NCBI GenBank assembly: GCA_905182175.1 | Contig: CAJJAT010000014.1 | Span: 124,001 to 188,000, forward strand | Direction of reading: 5' to 3' | DNA length: 64,000 nucleotides | DNA from: Flavobacteriales bacterium UBA1494 | GTDB taxonomy: Bacteria; Bacteroidota; Bacteroidia; Flavobacteriales_E; Vicingaceae | Shown: piece by piece, positions 21,277-26,120 of the stretch | Position numbering within the stretch: position 1 is the stretch's first letter | How the letters are laid out: each line of letters begins with the position of its first letter | The notes under the pieces: model-generated | Told to the model about the DNA's origin: nothing | What the model saw: the letters and a program-made list of their open reading frames with translations, nothing else | Databases searched by the model: none | Position numbers and translations under genes: made by a program

Positions 21277-22521
21277 ATGCTTTACCTCCGACTTTTAAAA
21301 GAAAGTTTATTTTTTGCAATTGATTCCTTAGTAGTGAACAAACTGAGAACCATATTGTCTCTGCTCGGCATTACGATCGGAATTTTCGCTATGGTTTCCG
21401 TTTTTACAATGGTTGATTCATTGGAAAACAATATCCGTAGCAGTATTTCCAGTCTTGGCGATAATGTTATTTACGTAGCAAAAATGCCATGGGATTTTGA
21501 CCCCAACCAACCGTGGTGGGATTATATTAGACGACCGCAGCCTGATTTAAACGAATTTAGAATGCTAAAAAAGCAGATTGCTAATGCTGAAGCTATCGCC
21601 ATGGTATTGGGTGGTGGAACAACTGTTAAATTCGAAAACAACTCCATGAACAATGTGGAAGGTACAGGAGTAACAAGCGAGTATAATCAAATTTGGGATT
21701 TAAAAATTGAAAAAGGTCGGTACATAACAGAACTTGAGAGCAACAGCGGGAGACCCGTTGGCGTGATTGGCGCCGATGTAGCAAGTGGACTATTTGGAAG
21801 CACTAACCCCATTGGCAAAAAACTAAAAATTAAGGGTCGAAAACTCGAAGTAATTGGAATTTTAGAAAAAGAAGGCGAAAGCATAATGGGCCAAACTAAC
21901 GATCGAAAAATATTTATGCCGCTCCAATTTGCTCGAAATTTTTACAATCTGAAAAGCCGAAACTCAAATGCTGTGATCATGGTAAGAGCCAAAGATGGTG
22001 TTGGGAACGAAGAACTGAAAGACGAGCTTACCGGAGTAATGCGCTCTTTGCGAAAATTGAAACCAAAAGTAAAAAACGATTTTGCATTGAACGAAATGAG
22101 CATGCTCTCGCAAGGATTTGACGCTATTTTTGGCGTCATTAATATCTCAGGATTTGTAATTGGAATATTCTCTATTCTAGTGGGAGGGTTTAGCATTGCT
22201 AACATTATGTTTGTTTCTGTGAAAGAACGGACAAGTCTTATTGGAATTCAAAAGTCTTTGGGCGCAAAGAATTTCTTTATTCTATTTCAGTTTTTATTTG
22301 AATCTGTTTTCTTGTGCTTAATTGGGGGTGCCGTGGGTTTATTCTTAATTTTTTTAGGCACACTTGCCATGACTCACATTTTCGATTTCCCTACCGCTTT
22401 AGGCTTAAACAACATTCTTTTAGGAGTTGGCCTTTCAGCCGGAATTGGCATTATTGCAGGAATTATTCCTTCCTACCAAGCAAGCAGGTTAGACCCCGTT
22501 GAGGCAATTCGGGCGAATTAA
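21277..22521 (+). CDS. MacB/FtsX-type ABC transporter permease
   Basis: 414 residues with the MacB layout: N-terminal membrane helix (about 25-45), a large periplasmic MacB-PCD domain (about 46-280), and three C-terminal helices. Family stretches include KLRTILSLLGITIGIFAMV, FSIANIMFVSVKERTSLIGI and IIPSYQASRLDPVEAIR. Such permeases couple ATP use by a separate ATPase to export or release of substrates at the envelope. No ATPase gene is adjacent, so its partner is elsewhere. Substrate unknown. Confidence 0.9.
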   Translation: MLYLRLLKESLFFAIDSLVVNKLRTILSLLGITIGIFAMVSVFTMVDSLENNIRSSISSLGDNVIYVAKMPWDFDPNQPWWDYIRRPQPDLNEFRMLKKQIANAEAIAMVLGGGTTVKFENNSMNNVEGTGVTSEYNQIWDLKIEKGRYITELESNSGRPVGVIGADVASGLFGSTNPIGKKLKIKGRKLEVIGILEKEGESIMGQTNDRKIFMPLQFARNFYNLKSRNSNAVIMVRAKDGVGNEELKDELTGVMRSLRKLKPKVKNDFALNEMSMLSQGFDAIFGVINISGFVIGIFSILVGGFSIANIMFVSVKERTSLIGIQKSLGAKNFFILFQFLFESVFLCLIGGAVGLFLIFLGTLAMTHIFDFPTALGLNNILLGVGLSAGIGIIAGIIPSYQASRLDPVEAIRAN

Positions 22522-22821
22522 TTCGCAATCTCATCCAGTTTATTGCCTCCCTTTCCTGCGATTTCTTTCCTTGTTAAATTCAATTACAAATGGAATAAGT
22601 ACTCCAAAAGGATTGCAAATCCAGGACAGTTTAAAAAATAATAATATTTTTTTGTGTTTTTTTAACAAAACTTAACTTATTTATTTAAAGGGATATACAA
22701 TTTAAAAAAGGTGGCTTTTTGGATAAAAAACTAGTTTTACGTTTAACAATTCCAACAAAAGATTAAACATTCTTCAACCTTTGCTGTTACAACTGAAATA
22801 ATTAAACTTAAATAATTAACT

Positions 22822-23580
22822 ATGGATTTATTAAATGTACTTGTTATACCGAAAGATGACCCGATAGCGTTCACTTTCTTTACCGGCTATATGGCAATGC
22901 TTGCAGCCTCAATTTTTTTCTTCTTCGAAAGAGGCAGAGTTGATGATAAGTGGAAACTGTCATTATTAGTATCAGCACTAATTACATTTATTGCTGCAGT
23001 TCATTATTATTACATGAGAGACTATTATCTCGCGACAGGGGAAAACCCCACCGCACTAAGGTACATAGATTGGACCTTAACAGTTCCGTTAATGTGTGTT
23101 GAATTTTACTTGCTTACAAAAGCTGCAGGTGCAAAAATTGCTTTATTATGGAAATTAATTGCTGCATCAGTTTTGATGCTTGTAGCTGGTTACATTGGAG
23201 AAGCTTTTAATCCAGAAGGTGGAGACACTGCTCACTCTGTATTATGGGGAGTAATTTCAACTATTGGATATATTTACATTCTTTACACTGCATGGTTTGG
23301 TGAAGTAGCTAAGTTAGCGGCAGCAAGCAACAATGAAATTGTGAAAAAAGGTGTTAGAACGTTAGCATGGTTTGTGCTTGCAGGATGGGCTATTTACCCA
23401 ATAGGTTACATGTGTATGCCTGGAGGTTGGTTAAATACAGCATTCGGATGGGGTTCTGAAAATGTTGATTTATTCTACAACATTGCAGATGCCATTAATA
23501 AAATTGGATTTGGTCTAGTAGTATATGGCATAGCCATTACTGCAACTGAACAAAATAAAGCGAAAGCAAAAACTGCTTAA
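22822..23580 (+). CDS. proteorhodopsin, probably green-absorbing, light-driven proton pump
   Basis: 252 residues, seven membrane helices. Key residues by alignment with proteorhodopsin: Schiff-base lysine Lys227 (NIADAINKIGFG), proton acceptor Asp83 and donor Glu94 in RYIDWTLTVPLMCVEFYL, and helix B His61 (counterion partner). The spectral-tuning position is Met91, the residue common in flavobacterial green-absorbing forms. The DTE triad (Asp83, Thr87, Glu94) indicates a proton pump rather than a sodium (NDQ) or chloride pump. A terminator follows and the retinal-making enzyme Blh comes next. Confidence 0.96.
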   Translation: MDLLNVLVIPKDDPIAFTFFTGYMAMLAASIFFFFERGRVDDKWKLSLLVSALITFIAAVHYYYMRDYYLATGENPTALRYIDWTLTVPLMCVEFYLLTKAAGAKIALLWKLIAASVLMLVAGYIGEAFNPEGGDTAHSVLWGVISTIGYIYILYTAWFGEVAKLAAASNNEIVKKGVRTLAWFVLAGWAIYPIGYMCMPGGWLNTAFGWGSENVDLFYNIADAINKIGFGLVVYGIAITATEQNKAKAKTA

Positions 23581-23587
23581 ATTTAAG

Positions 23588-23627
23588 ACCCTGTGCTACT
23601 AACCTTAGCACAGGGTTTATTTTTTTC
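23588..23627 (+). terminator. intrinsic terminator between proteorhodopsin and blh
   Basis: Perfect 11-base stem ACCCTGTGCTA (23588-23598) / TAGCACAGGGT (23606-23616), seven-base loop, then TTATTTTTTTC. The T-tract ends immediately before the blh ATG at 23628. It would end most proteorhodopsin transcripts, with blh made from read-through. Confidence 0.9.
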
Positions 23628-24560
23628 ATGACCAAAGCCATCTTCTTCTTTATTTCTTGCTTACTTCTCCTGTTGCCACTAGTATTTAATGCAGGAGAAA
23701 TTTCTATGTCCAGCCAATTACTATTTACAACACCTTTTCTTCTGTTGTTTGGTATCCCTCACGGTGCAATTGACAATGTACTATACCTGCGAAACAATAA
23801 AATTAAAAACACTCACTTTATTGCGATTTACTTGGTTTTTGTTGCCTCCAATATTGCAATTTGGATTTTCTCTCCAACCATAGCGTATGTGCTGTTTCTA
23901 TTTCTCTCAGCCTATCATTTCGGTCAATCACAATTTACTCATTACTTCGACAAGCAACCATCAAGCCACAAAGCGCTCTATTTGTTTTGGGGCATTTCAA
24001 TCCTTTCCGGTCTTTTGTATTTCAACATAGCTGAAACCCACTCCATCATGGTTCAACATGAAGAATTTGCTGTTTTCAGTCCTCTGCACCAAGAAGTTGA
24101 CATGCTGTATCTGTTCCTTGCCTCTACATTACTTACAGTGTCATTCATTATCTATCTTACTGCCAAAAAATTCCTAACGATTGAGAATATGTTTATGGAG
24201 TTACTCGTAATTTCTCTGGTTCTAATTTGCTTTTACTTGCTCCCTTTTTTAATAGGCTTTACTTTGTACTTTATCGTTCTTCACTCATTTAAAGTATTGA
24301 AAGAAGAATACCATTTTCTTGATTCTAAGAAAGAGATTAGCTCCTTTAAAGGCTTCATTCAACTCATCGCACCATTTACACTACTTTCCGTTTTTGGTAT
24401 TTTATTTCTTTTTGGATTAATTTATTTGGATGTCCTGACGTTTTCTTACGGTTATTGCTTGTTGATTGTTATTTCCTCTATTACCCTTCCGCACGTATTT
24501 GTAATGAACAAGTTTTACGGGATTCTATTTAGCAGTAAACGATCACCCGAACTGGTCTAG
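23628..24560 (+). CDS. blh: Brp/Blh family beta-carotene 15,15'-dioxygenase
   Basis: 310 residues, integral membrane protein with about eight helices. It splits beta-carotene into two retinal molecules, the chromophore of proteorhodopsin. The conserved iron-ligand histidines appear as His45 (GIPHGAIDN), His97 (SAYHFGQSQ), His219 (FIVLHSFKVLKEE) and His289 (ITLPHVFVMNKFY). It begins 47 bases after the proteorhodopsin stop, directly behind a terminator. No carotenoid synthesis genes (crt) are in the window. Confidence 0.93.
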   Translation: MTKAIFFFISCLLLLLPLVFNAGEISMSSQLLFTTPFLLLFGIPHGAIDNVLYLRNNKIKNTHFIAIYLVFVASNIAIWIFSPTIAYVLFLFLSAYHFGQSQFTHYFDKQPSSHKALYLFWGISILSGLLYFNIAETHSIMVQHEEFAVFSPLHQEVDMLYLFLASTLLTVSFIIYLTAKKFLTIENMFMELLVISLVLICFYLLPFLIGFTLYFIVLHSFKVLKEEYHFLDSKKEISSFKGFIQLIAPFTLLSVFGILFLFGLIYLDVLTFSYGYCLLIVISSITLPHVFVMNKFYGILFSSKRSPELV

Positions 24561-24608
24561 TCAACATTTTACTACCCGAATTTTTGATTTTGATGGGCAA
24601 ACAAATGC

Positions 24609-24872
24609 GATGTATAAAAAATGGGTTAAGTGCAACTTTAAGGAAGTAAACCAAAAAACACCTTAACTTCTCTAACTCAAGTATACCTCTTGTGATGTCC
24701 TTGCTCATGCTCTTCATTAAATAACTCCACATACCCGTCAGCTTATTTTCTATTTTATTCATCAGCCTTTCTGCAACTCTAAAACTTTTCATAGCGCATC
24801 CAAATCGCAGAAGCATTTTATTAATGCACCCCAACGCAACTCACAACGTATCTTATCGATTTTTTATACACC
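24609..24872. repeat. imperfect inverted repeats bounding ~260 bases
   Basis: TGTATAAAAAAT occurs at about 24612-24623 and again, inverted, at about 24858-24870 (ATTTTTTATACA). Similar but diverged bases lie next to each core. A small element or cassette boundary is possible; no transposase or target duplication is seen. Confidence 0.35.
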
Positions 24873-25025
24873 CTAATTGGGCTGGGTATGTCTATTCAAC
24901 TTCGCCAGTGCTCTGCCCTTATTTACATAAGCATCAATATTCTCGCCATCTTCAAAACGTTGTCCGCCAACCTTGTTTACATTGTAATTAGGTTCTACAA
25001 ATGCAGGCTCTAAACCGTCCAACTA
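24873..25025 (-). pseudogene. unidentified coding remnant
   Basis: Fifty open codons after a TAG at 25023-25025: LDGLEPAFVEPNYNVNKVGG then DAYVNKGRALAKLNRH, ending at TAG 24873. Composition looks protein-like. The upstream sequence in another frame (ENINYLKGLAK) could be the start of the same gene. Family not recognised; low certainty that it was ever a gene. Confidence 0.3.
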
Positions 25026-25514
25026 CATTTTGCCAAGCCTTTCAAGTAATTAATATTCTCGCTGACGGGCTCTCTAAACATCTATAGTAATGAAAATAAG
25101 GGAAATAATAAGGATAAGTAAGCCTGTCACAAAGTTAAAATTAATCCAACTCAAGAGCAATGAATGCTTTGCAAGCCAAAATAAGAAGCACACTTAGTAC
25201 TTTTTTAATGTGTAAAATGTGACCAATGGATTTCAGAAACTAGTAACCTCACTAACTGTTACGAATTAATTGACTCTCCCTACAAAATAAATTTCACCAA
25301 GGTAAGTTGAAAGCATTCTTCACCAGGAGAAGTACCTTACAAAGAAGCTAAAGAAGCCTTTGACCGTTTAATTTTGCTTACAATACGTTACAAACTAAAC
25401 CCTTAATCACAAGTTATTTTAAACTTTTTCTCTTATATTGGAGTTTCGAAAATACTACAGAACAAAAGGAGAATAAACTCACCTTTCCGTTTATCTGGGT
25501 GTTAGCAAAAATTC

Positions 25515-25802
25515 ATGTATATAAAACGTTCAATTTCTTTAATTGCTTCAGCAATTGCAATTCTTGTCATGATTTATCATTTAAATCTAATAGAAGAGTC
25601 CTACAAAGACCCAGAGCTTGGTGCGCTAAGAGAATTTGTTTCACTTTTTATCTATAGCCGTACAACCAGAATCATAATGTTGGTTTTTCTAATCTCAGCC
25701 ATTTTAGTAGATAGGATTTTAAATAAACGGAAATTTGGGTTCCTAAATATTGTTGGTAATATCTTAGCATTACTTATGCTTATTCACTTTTACCTACAAT
25801 AA
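25515..25802 (+). CDS. small three-helix membrane protein of unknown function
   Basis: 95 residues starting at ATG. Three hydrophobic segments: about 7-25 (ISLIASAIAILVMIYHL), 50-68 (TRIIMLVFLISAILV) and 75-93 (FLNIVGNILALLMLIHFYL), with charged loops (EESYKDPELGALREF, NKRKFG). Composition is natural for an inner-membrane protein and the stop follows a clean C-terminus. It is isolated within gene-poor repeats and may be a cassette-type gene. No family recognised. Confidence 0.5.
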   Translation: MYIKRSISLIASAIAILVMIYHLNLIEESYKDPELGALREFVSLFIYSRTTRIIMLVFLISAILVDRILNKRKFGFLNIVGNILALLMLIHFYLQ

Positions 25803-25815
25803 ATAGACTGAGAAC

Positions 25816-26120
25816 CTAACTCAAAACATACTCAACTCAGGGACTAAATTGATTTCATCTGTTAAGATTTTGAACAAACAAAATCACAAACTTTAGCTTT
25901 TCAATTTAGCACAAAGTTTCTGTGTAAGTTGACTTGGTATTTGACTCGAGAACAAGACCTGAGAACCTAACTGTTAGAACAATAACTTTTGCTAACATTA
26001 TGTAAAATGCATTGAACGTAAGTAGGTTACGTTAGTTTAGTAGCCGTCTGAAACTTCTCAAAATCTACTTGGCAGATTTCGTAATGGCTGAAAAAATACA
26101 AAACTGCAAAGCAGTTTTTG
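25816..26120. repeat. ~305-base direct repeat, copy A
   Basis: Diverged copy of 29071-29378. Shared words in the same order include CTCAAAAC, GATTTTGAACAAACAAAA, TTAGTTTCTGT-like, GAAACTT and TTGGCAGATTTCGTAAT. Contains AACGTAA/TTACGTT (hairpin with loop GTAGG) near 26012-26030 and AAACTGC-AAA-GCAGTTT at 26100-26116. Follows the small membrane protein gene closely. Confidence 0.7.

Follow-up and report, generated by a model that had tools for sequence, protein, structure and literature searches.

The hairpin that separates the proteorhodopsin gene from blh in Flavobacteriales bacterium UBA1494 is the opsin gene's own intrinsic terminator, whatever gene comes next, and the distinctive feature of the locus is not the hairpin itself but the position of the retinal gene against it. 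The best explanation of this arrangement, and one that we consider probable, is that blh is fed by read-through of the opsin terminator. Both the termination at the hairpin and the supply of blh by read-through are predicted from sequence. Opsin and retinal-synthesis genes are described as often adjacent "for concerted expression" (PMC5932025). Despite this common adjacency a strong terminator usually stands between them in the Bacteroidota sampled here. The opsin-blh hairpin is a widespread case of an already known type of element. A single cis element would, if the retinal gene is fed by read-through, set the amount of pigment enzyme made per opsin.

The features of the locus are listed in Table 1, with coordinates that refer to the window, i.e. 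the whole stretch of 64,000 nucleotides that was analysed. The opsin gene, which is the sole rhodopsin match in the genome, and blh lie 47 nt apart on the same strand. The ATG assigned to blh is backed by relatives whose proteins begin at this residue (MTKAIF, MTKATF, MTKEIF, MSKEIF and MNKTFF). A preliminary description of the window had placed a strong hairpin and T-tract (23588-23627) immediately before this ATG. The arrangement was confirmed, with the small corrections that the stem begins 2 nt upstream of that span and that the T-run, which ends at 23626, is followed by a single C at 23627 before the start codon. The hairpin is real and not a chance structure: its fold has a z-score of -7.1, none of 200 shuffled sequences was equally stable (0/200), and 8 T are found within the 9 nt 3' of its core. 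A simple scan of positions 21500-26000 yielded 3 terminator-like sites against 3.1 expected from shuffles, so that the number of such sites is uninformative by itself and strength and position carry the weight. The GC-rich stem, the short loop and the T-tract just 3' of a stop codon are those of an intrinsic (Rho-independent) terminator, with the difference that here the next same-strand gene starts two bases after the last T. No Rfam family matched at gathering score in 22500-24800.

Table 1. Features of the proteorhodopsin-blh locus (positions in the window).
Feature	Coordinates	Strand	Basis
Candidate opsin promoter -7 box (AACCTTTG, 1 mismatch to TAnnTTTG)	22776..22783	+	Weak: best upstream score, model drifted T-rich, no mapped start
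Proteorhodopsin gene, 252 aa, TAA at 23578-23580	22822..23580	+	PF01036, E=3.3e-43
5-nt gap from opsin stop codon to hairpin	23581..23585	+	Sequence
Terminator hairpin, 13-bp stem, 7-nt loop	23586..23618	+	-20.7 kcal/mol, RNA fold
T-tract TTTATTTTTTT, first bases paired in stem	23616..23626	+	Sequence
blh, beta-carotene 15,15'-dioxygenase, 310 aa	23628..24560	+	PF15461, E=1.5e-39; TIGR03753, E=5.3e-40

Terminators were called with a strict rule that required a G-C-closed stem of at least 6 pairs, a loop of at most 12 nt, an energy of -8 kcal/mol or better and 5 or more T among the first 9 nt 3' of the core. It replaced a first hairpin caller, which allowed long windows and picked wrong hairpins (e.g. 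in locus L008). Within 200 nt 3' of blh (24560-24760) the strict rule finds no terminator, unlike 3' of the opsin gene. A class-wide sample of 395 genomes contained a rhodopsin in 90 and a Blh domain in 72, and gave 85 rhodopsin loci after removal of duplicates, all with a readable downstream side. A strict terminator was identified 3' of the opsin gene in 75 of the 85, compared with 2.8/85 in shuffled copies and 24/121 for other genes of the same loci. It is present in every class of downstream neighbour: in 37/41 loci where a same-strand blh frame comes next, in 13/16 with another same-strand frame, in 23/26 of the convergent class and in both loci with no neighbour in view (2/2). Tighter limits (-12 kcal/mol, 7 T) retained 27/41 of the same-strand-blh loci and 26/44 of the remainder. 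Because the terminator occurs across all of these classes, the hairpin is assigned to the opsin gene. The comparison of this spacer between related loci, proposed in the preliminary description, thus recovered the terminator in 37 of 41 opsin-blh loci, whereas the reading of the hairpin as a device of blh was not borne out, given its presence in 38/44 loci outside the same-strand-blh class.

By eye, the stems of different lineages show no apparent kinship, which indicates that it is the structure and its spacing that persist, and not the sequence. Among three stems of the genus labelled g44 one pair had changed on both sides, a degree of covariation that was matched by 173 of 500 shuffles. The same genus label includes two loci (L049 and L053) in which blh follows the opsin stop after 14 nt without a hairpin, next to four (L056, L061, L063 and L066) with a hairpin in a spacer of 66-70 nt; together they offer a natural comparison of expression with and without the element, although the two loci that lack the hairpin count against a read-through origin of blh mRNA.

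A deliberately leaky terminator before retinal genes was considered and rejected, as these terminators are no weaker than those of opsin genes that face a convergent gene (stem energy, p 0.74; T count, p 0.55). For this comparison and for the distances given below, L065 and L138 were reassigned manually to the convergent class, since their same-strand frames lack a Pfam match and a longer convergent frame follows. Since the terminators before retinal genes are as strong as the others, a tuned leak is not visible in the sequence, which counts against the read-through reading.

Downstream retinal genes take three forms: standalone blh, a fusion of lycopene cyclase and Blh (PF05834 and PF15461 in all three tested) and crtY followed by blh (L116, L124 and L135). 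The distance from the hairpin core to the start of the retinal gene (blh, crtY-blh or crtY) is 7-49 nt in 39 scored loci, whereas non-retinal same-strand neighbours, which include TetR, S24 peptidase, PhnA, YHYH, amine oxidase and DUF4252 families, start 56-168 nt away (8 loci; p 1e-5; with one value per genus, 29 vs 5, p 5e-4). The close layout was found under 15 GTDB family labels and in one unplaced locus. These distances include starts set by hand in L111, L124, L135, L116 and L129 and, in L114, L107 and L082, starts put at a GTG or TTG near the terminator where there is no nearby in-frame ATG; L033 and L099 were left out for uncertain starts. With first-ATG starts only, 6/38 distances fall outside 7-49 nt (-11 in L111, 97 in L114, 236 in L033, 248 in L099, 584 in L082 and 609 in L107). 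In L099 the Blh frame begins no sooner than 207 nt past the opsin stop and its usual N-terminus is missing; it is possibly a decayed copy.

A terminator that abuts the next start is rare in the source genome, but opsin-blh has company. In the 1.24 Mb sampled of the 3.33-Mb genome, with genes called by a simple longest-ORF rule and not by a trained gene finder, the strict rule called a terminator for 72 of the 849 genes, against 75/85 for the rhodopsin genes of the class-wide sample, and in 41 of the 593 same-strand gene pairs. Only 4 of the 329 same-strand pairs with a spacer below 60 nt have one. Among the 41, opsin-blh has the shortest distance from core to ATG (12 nt; the next are 16, 17, 17 and 18 nt), and 13 of them, counting opsin-blh, are no more than 34 nt from the start that follows. 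Other pairs, in which 16-30 nt separate the terminator from the following ATG, are found at L181 (- 15016), L191 (- 12819), L151 (+ 2845), L158 (- 6723 and - 12787), L182 (+ 5048), L160 (+ 11908) and L171 (- 4736). In the second L158 case a TACCTTTG box comes directly behind the T-tract, a layout suggestive of a promoter that overlaps the terminator. The lycopene cyclase of the source genome (PF05834; G000 C28:41129-42196, L200) is encoded on another contig, apart from opsin and blh.

In the reading that we favour, RNA polymerase would start at the opsin promoter and in most cases stop at the hairpin, releasing a monocistronic opsin mRNA, while the fraction that passes would give an opsin-blh mRNA with blh as a read-through cistron. 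The preliminary description had proposed that blh lacks a separate leader and depends on read-through or on a start site inside the stem. The lack of a leader and a probable dependence on read-through are in line with the 7-49 nt separating retinal genes from the hairpin core, against 56-168 nt for other neighbours, and with the absence of an exact TAnnTTTG box from all 37 opsin-retinal spacers. A promoter inside the opsin gene, there named as grounds for refutation, fails as such, because its transcript would have to cross the same hairpin and would not bypass it. Partial termination at intrinsic terminators has been described in a flavobacterium, in the form of 67 "3' PT" regions (PMC9723704). 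For the high opsin to low Blh ratio that the preliminary description had suggested, the nearest published observation is the weak expression of blh reported for Dokdonia PRO95 (PMC3587595), which would fit if the genes there are laid out in the same way. Among the open-access papers listed by searches on opsin and blh transcription, terminators and read-through, none dealt with a rhodopsin-blh terminator.

The promoter search used only the exact published flavobacterial -7 box, TAnnTTTG. In the source genome this box occurs upstream of 30/141 genes and inside 17/285. In the 37 spacers it is absent (0/37, with 3.4 expected by shuffle), which we regard as weak evidence because opsin genes show no upstream enrichment of the box either (16/81 vs 16.7 expected). 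The candidate box of the opsin gene in the window (Table 1) lies 46 nt before its ATG. A -7 box model trained by expectation-maximisation on 141 upstream regions was dropped, as it drifted towards T-rich sequence and did hardly better than shuffles.

These boxes bear on the possibility that blh has a promoter of its own on the hairpin and T-tract, which would give a leaderless or near-leaderless mRNA and leave the terminator to insulate blh from the opsin gene. In the source genome many -7 boxes begin as close as 12-34 nt to the ATG, TATTTTTT at -10 from blh fits TAnnTTTG save for its last base, and the tight pair at L158 (12787, - strand) carries TACCTTTG right behind its T-tract. However, the exact box is missing from all 37 spacers and a box at -10 would put the start of transcription at or inside the gene; likewise, transcription from a site 3' of the stem but 5' of the ATG would give an mRNA with hardly any leader. 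Leaderless mRNAs make up only 5.5% in the account of F. psychrophilum given in PMC9723704. We think it unlikely that blh is transcribed in this way.

The hairpin might instead mainly protect or mark the 3' end of an opsin mRNA cut from a co-transcribed precursor, so that the ratio of the two products would be set by decay and not by termination. The hairpins of L101 and L043, which lack a T-tract and thereby count against the read-through reading, would fit such a role, as does the puf operon of Rhodobacter, where segmental mRNA stability is described as contributing to the ratio of LHI to reaction centre (PMC6238624). There, as in opsin-blh, a hairpin (pufA-pufL) stands between photosystem genes of unequal stoichiometry, but the puf ratio is attributed in that source to RNase E cleavage and mRNA stability, whereas the opsin-blh hairpin is followed by a T-tract. 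Indeed, 37/41 spacers pass the strict caller, with its demand for 5 or more T in the 9 nt 3' of the stem, and a like hairpin is found in 23/26 convergent-class opsin loci, where nothing co-transcribed lies behind, which makes protection a quite unlikely main function. That there is no regulation at all, and that genome compaction has brought blh near an ordinary opsin terminator and left it to be transcribed by leakage, is very improbable: 12 other same-strand pairs of the sampled genome do show only 16-34 nt between a terminator and the following start, but unrelated same-strand neighbours of opsin genes keep their 56-168 nt and the short spacing of retinal genes extends across 15 family labels.

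A natural precedent for read-through is found in E. coli, where a partial terminator lies inside an operon, between rplL and rpoB. As in that case, the opsin-blh terminator separates same-strand genes with products required at different levels; functionally linked same-strand genes with a terminator between them, by which partial terminators are recognised, are found in 37/41 opsin-blh loci. Unlike the rplL-rpoB element, the opsin-blh hairpin lies against the start codon, where it would be part of the translation start region of blh, and read-through is here a proposal. On a read-through mRNA the hairpin would stand 9 nt upstream of the blh AUG. Of the 906 starts sampled, that of blh ranks fourth in structure over the region from -45 to +20, and A makes up 15% of the 20 nt preceding its ATG, a value equalled or undercut by only 5.3% of 285 genes. 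Such a structured, A-poor start may lower the translation of blh; it could also mean that blh is scantly translated, which counts against the read-through reading.

A tentative and rather doubtful extension of the favoured reading, made by analogy, is that read-through is coupled to translation and that the retinal gene has been kept against the opsin terminator across the Bacteroidota for this reason. A ribosome finishing the opsin would cover the base of the hairpin, which lies 5 nt downstream, and polymerase would enter blh, such that retinal synthesis would follow opsin translation; when opsin translation slows, the terminator would close and retinal, a reactive aldehyde, would not be overproduced. 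In E. coli, the tR2 constructs described in PMC4824070 are nearly fully repressed by the ribosome when the terminator lies 5-8 nt after the stop codon, and fully active beyond about 27-30 nt. The 5-nt gap of opsin-blh is inside the range of nearly full repression, with the difference that opsin-blh is a natural Bacteroidota locus for which coupling is proposed from spacing. In B. subtilis, where coupling is absent, terminators near stop codons are reported to work (PMC7858274).

The opsin stem starts at position 6 after the stop codon, whereas the 31 convergent-end terminators of the source genome start at position 13 or later; a gap of at most 5 nt was found for 4/72 sampled terminators of this genome and for 0/31 at convergent ends. 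With a cut-off of 12 nt that was picked after the data had been seen, the stem starts within this distance in 8/22 standalone-blh loci, 2/19 fusion or crtY loci and 1/32 loci with other neighbours. The other 14 of the 22 standalone-blh loci have their stem begin at position 13 or beyond, and the short range excludes most retinal loci. Per genus, the stems of standalone-blh loci are nearer to the stop codon (median 16 vs 23, p 0.0075; in genus counts 6/15 vs 1/19, p 0.028), in comparisons that are not tree-based.

Finally, the blh of the window is a standalone gene whose nearest relative in the family sample (72% identity) belongs to another genus. Four of the five sampled genus mates (L002-L005) have only weak Blh matches (33-35%), inside frames of about 690-710 aa, and one of these, L004, is a lycopene cyclase-Blh fusion. 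This pattern of sequence kinship suggests exchange of the locus.
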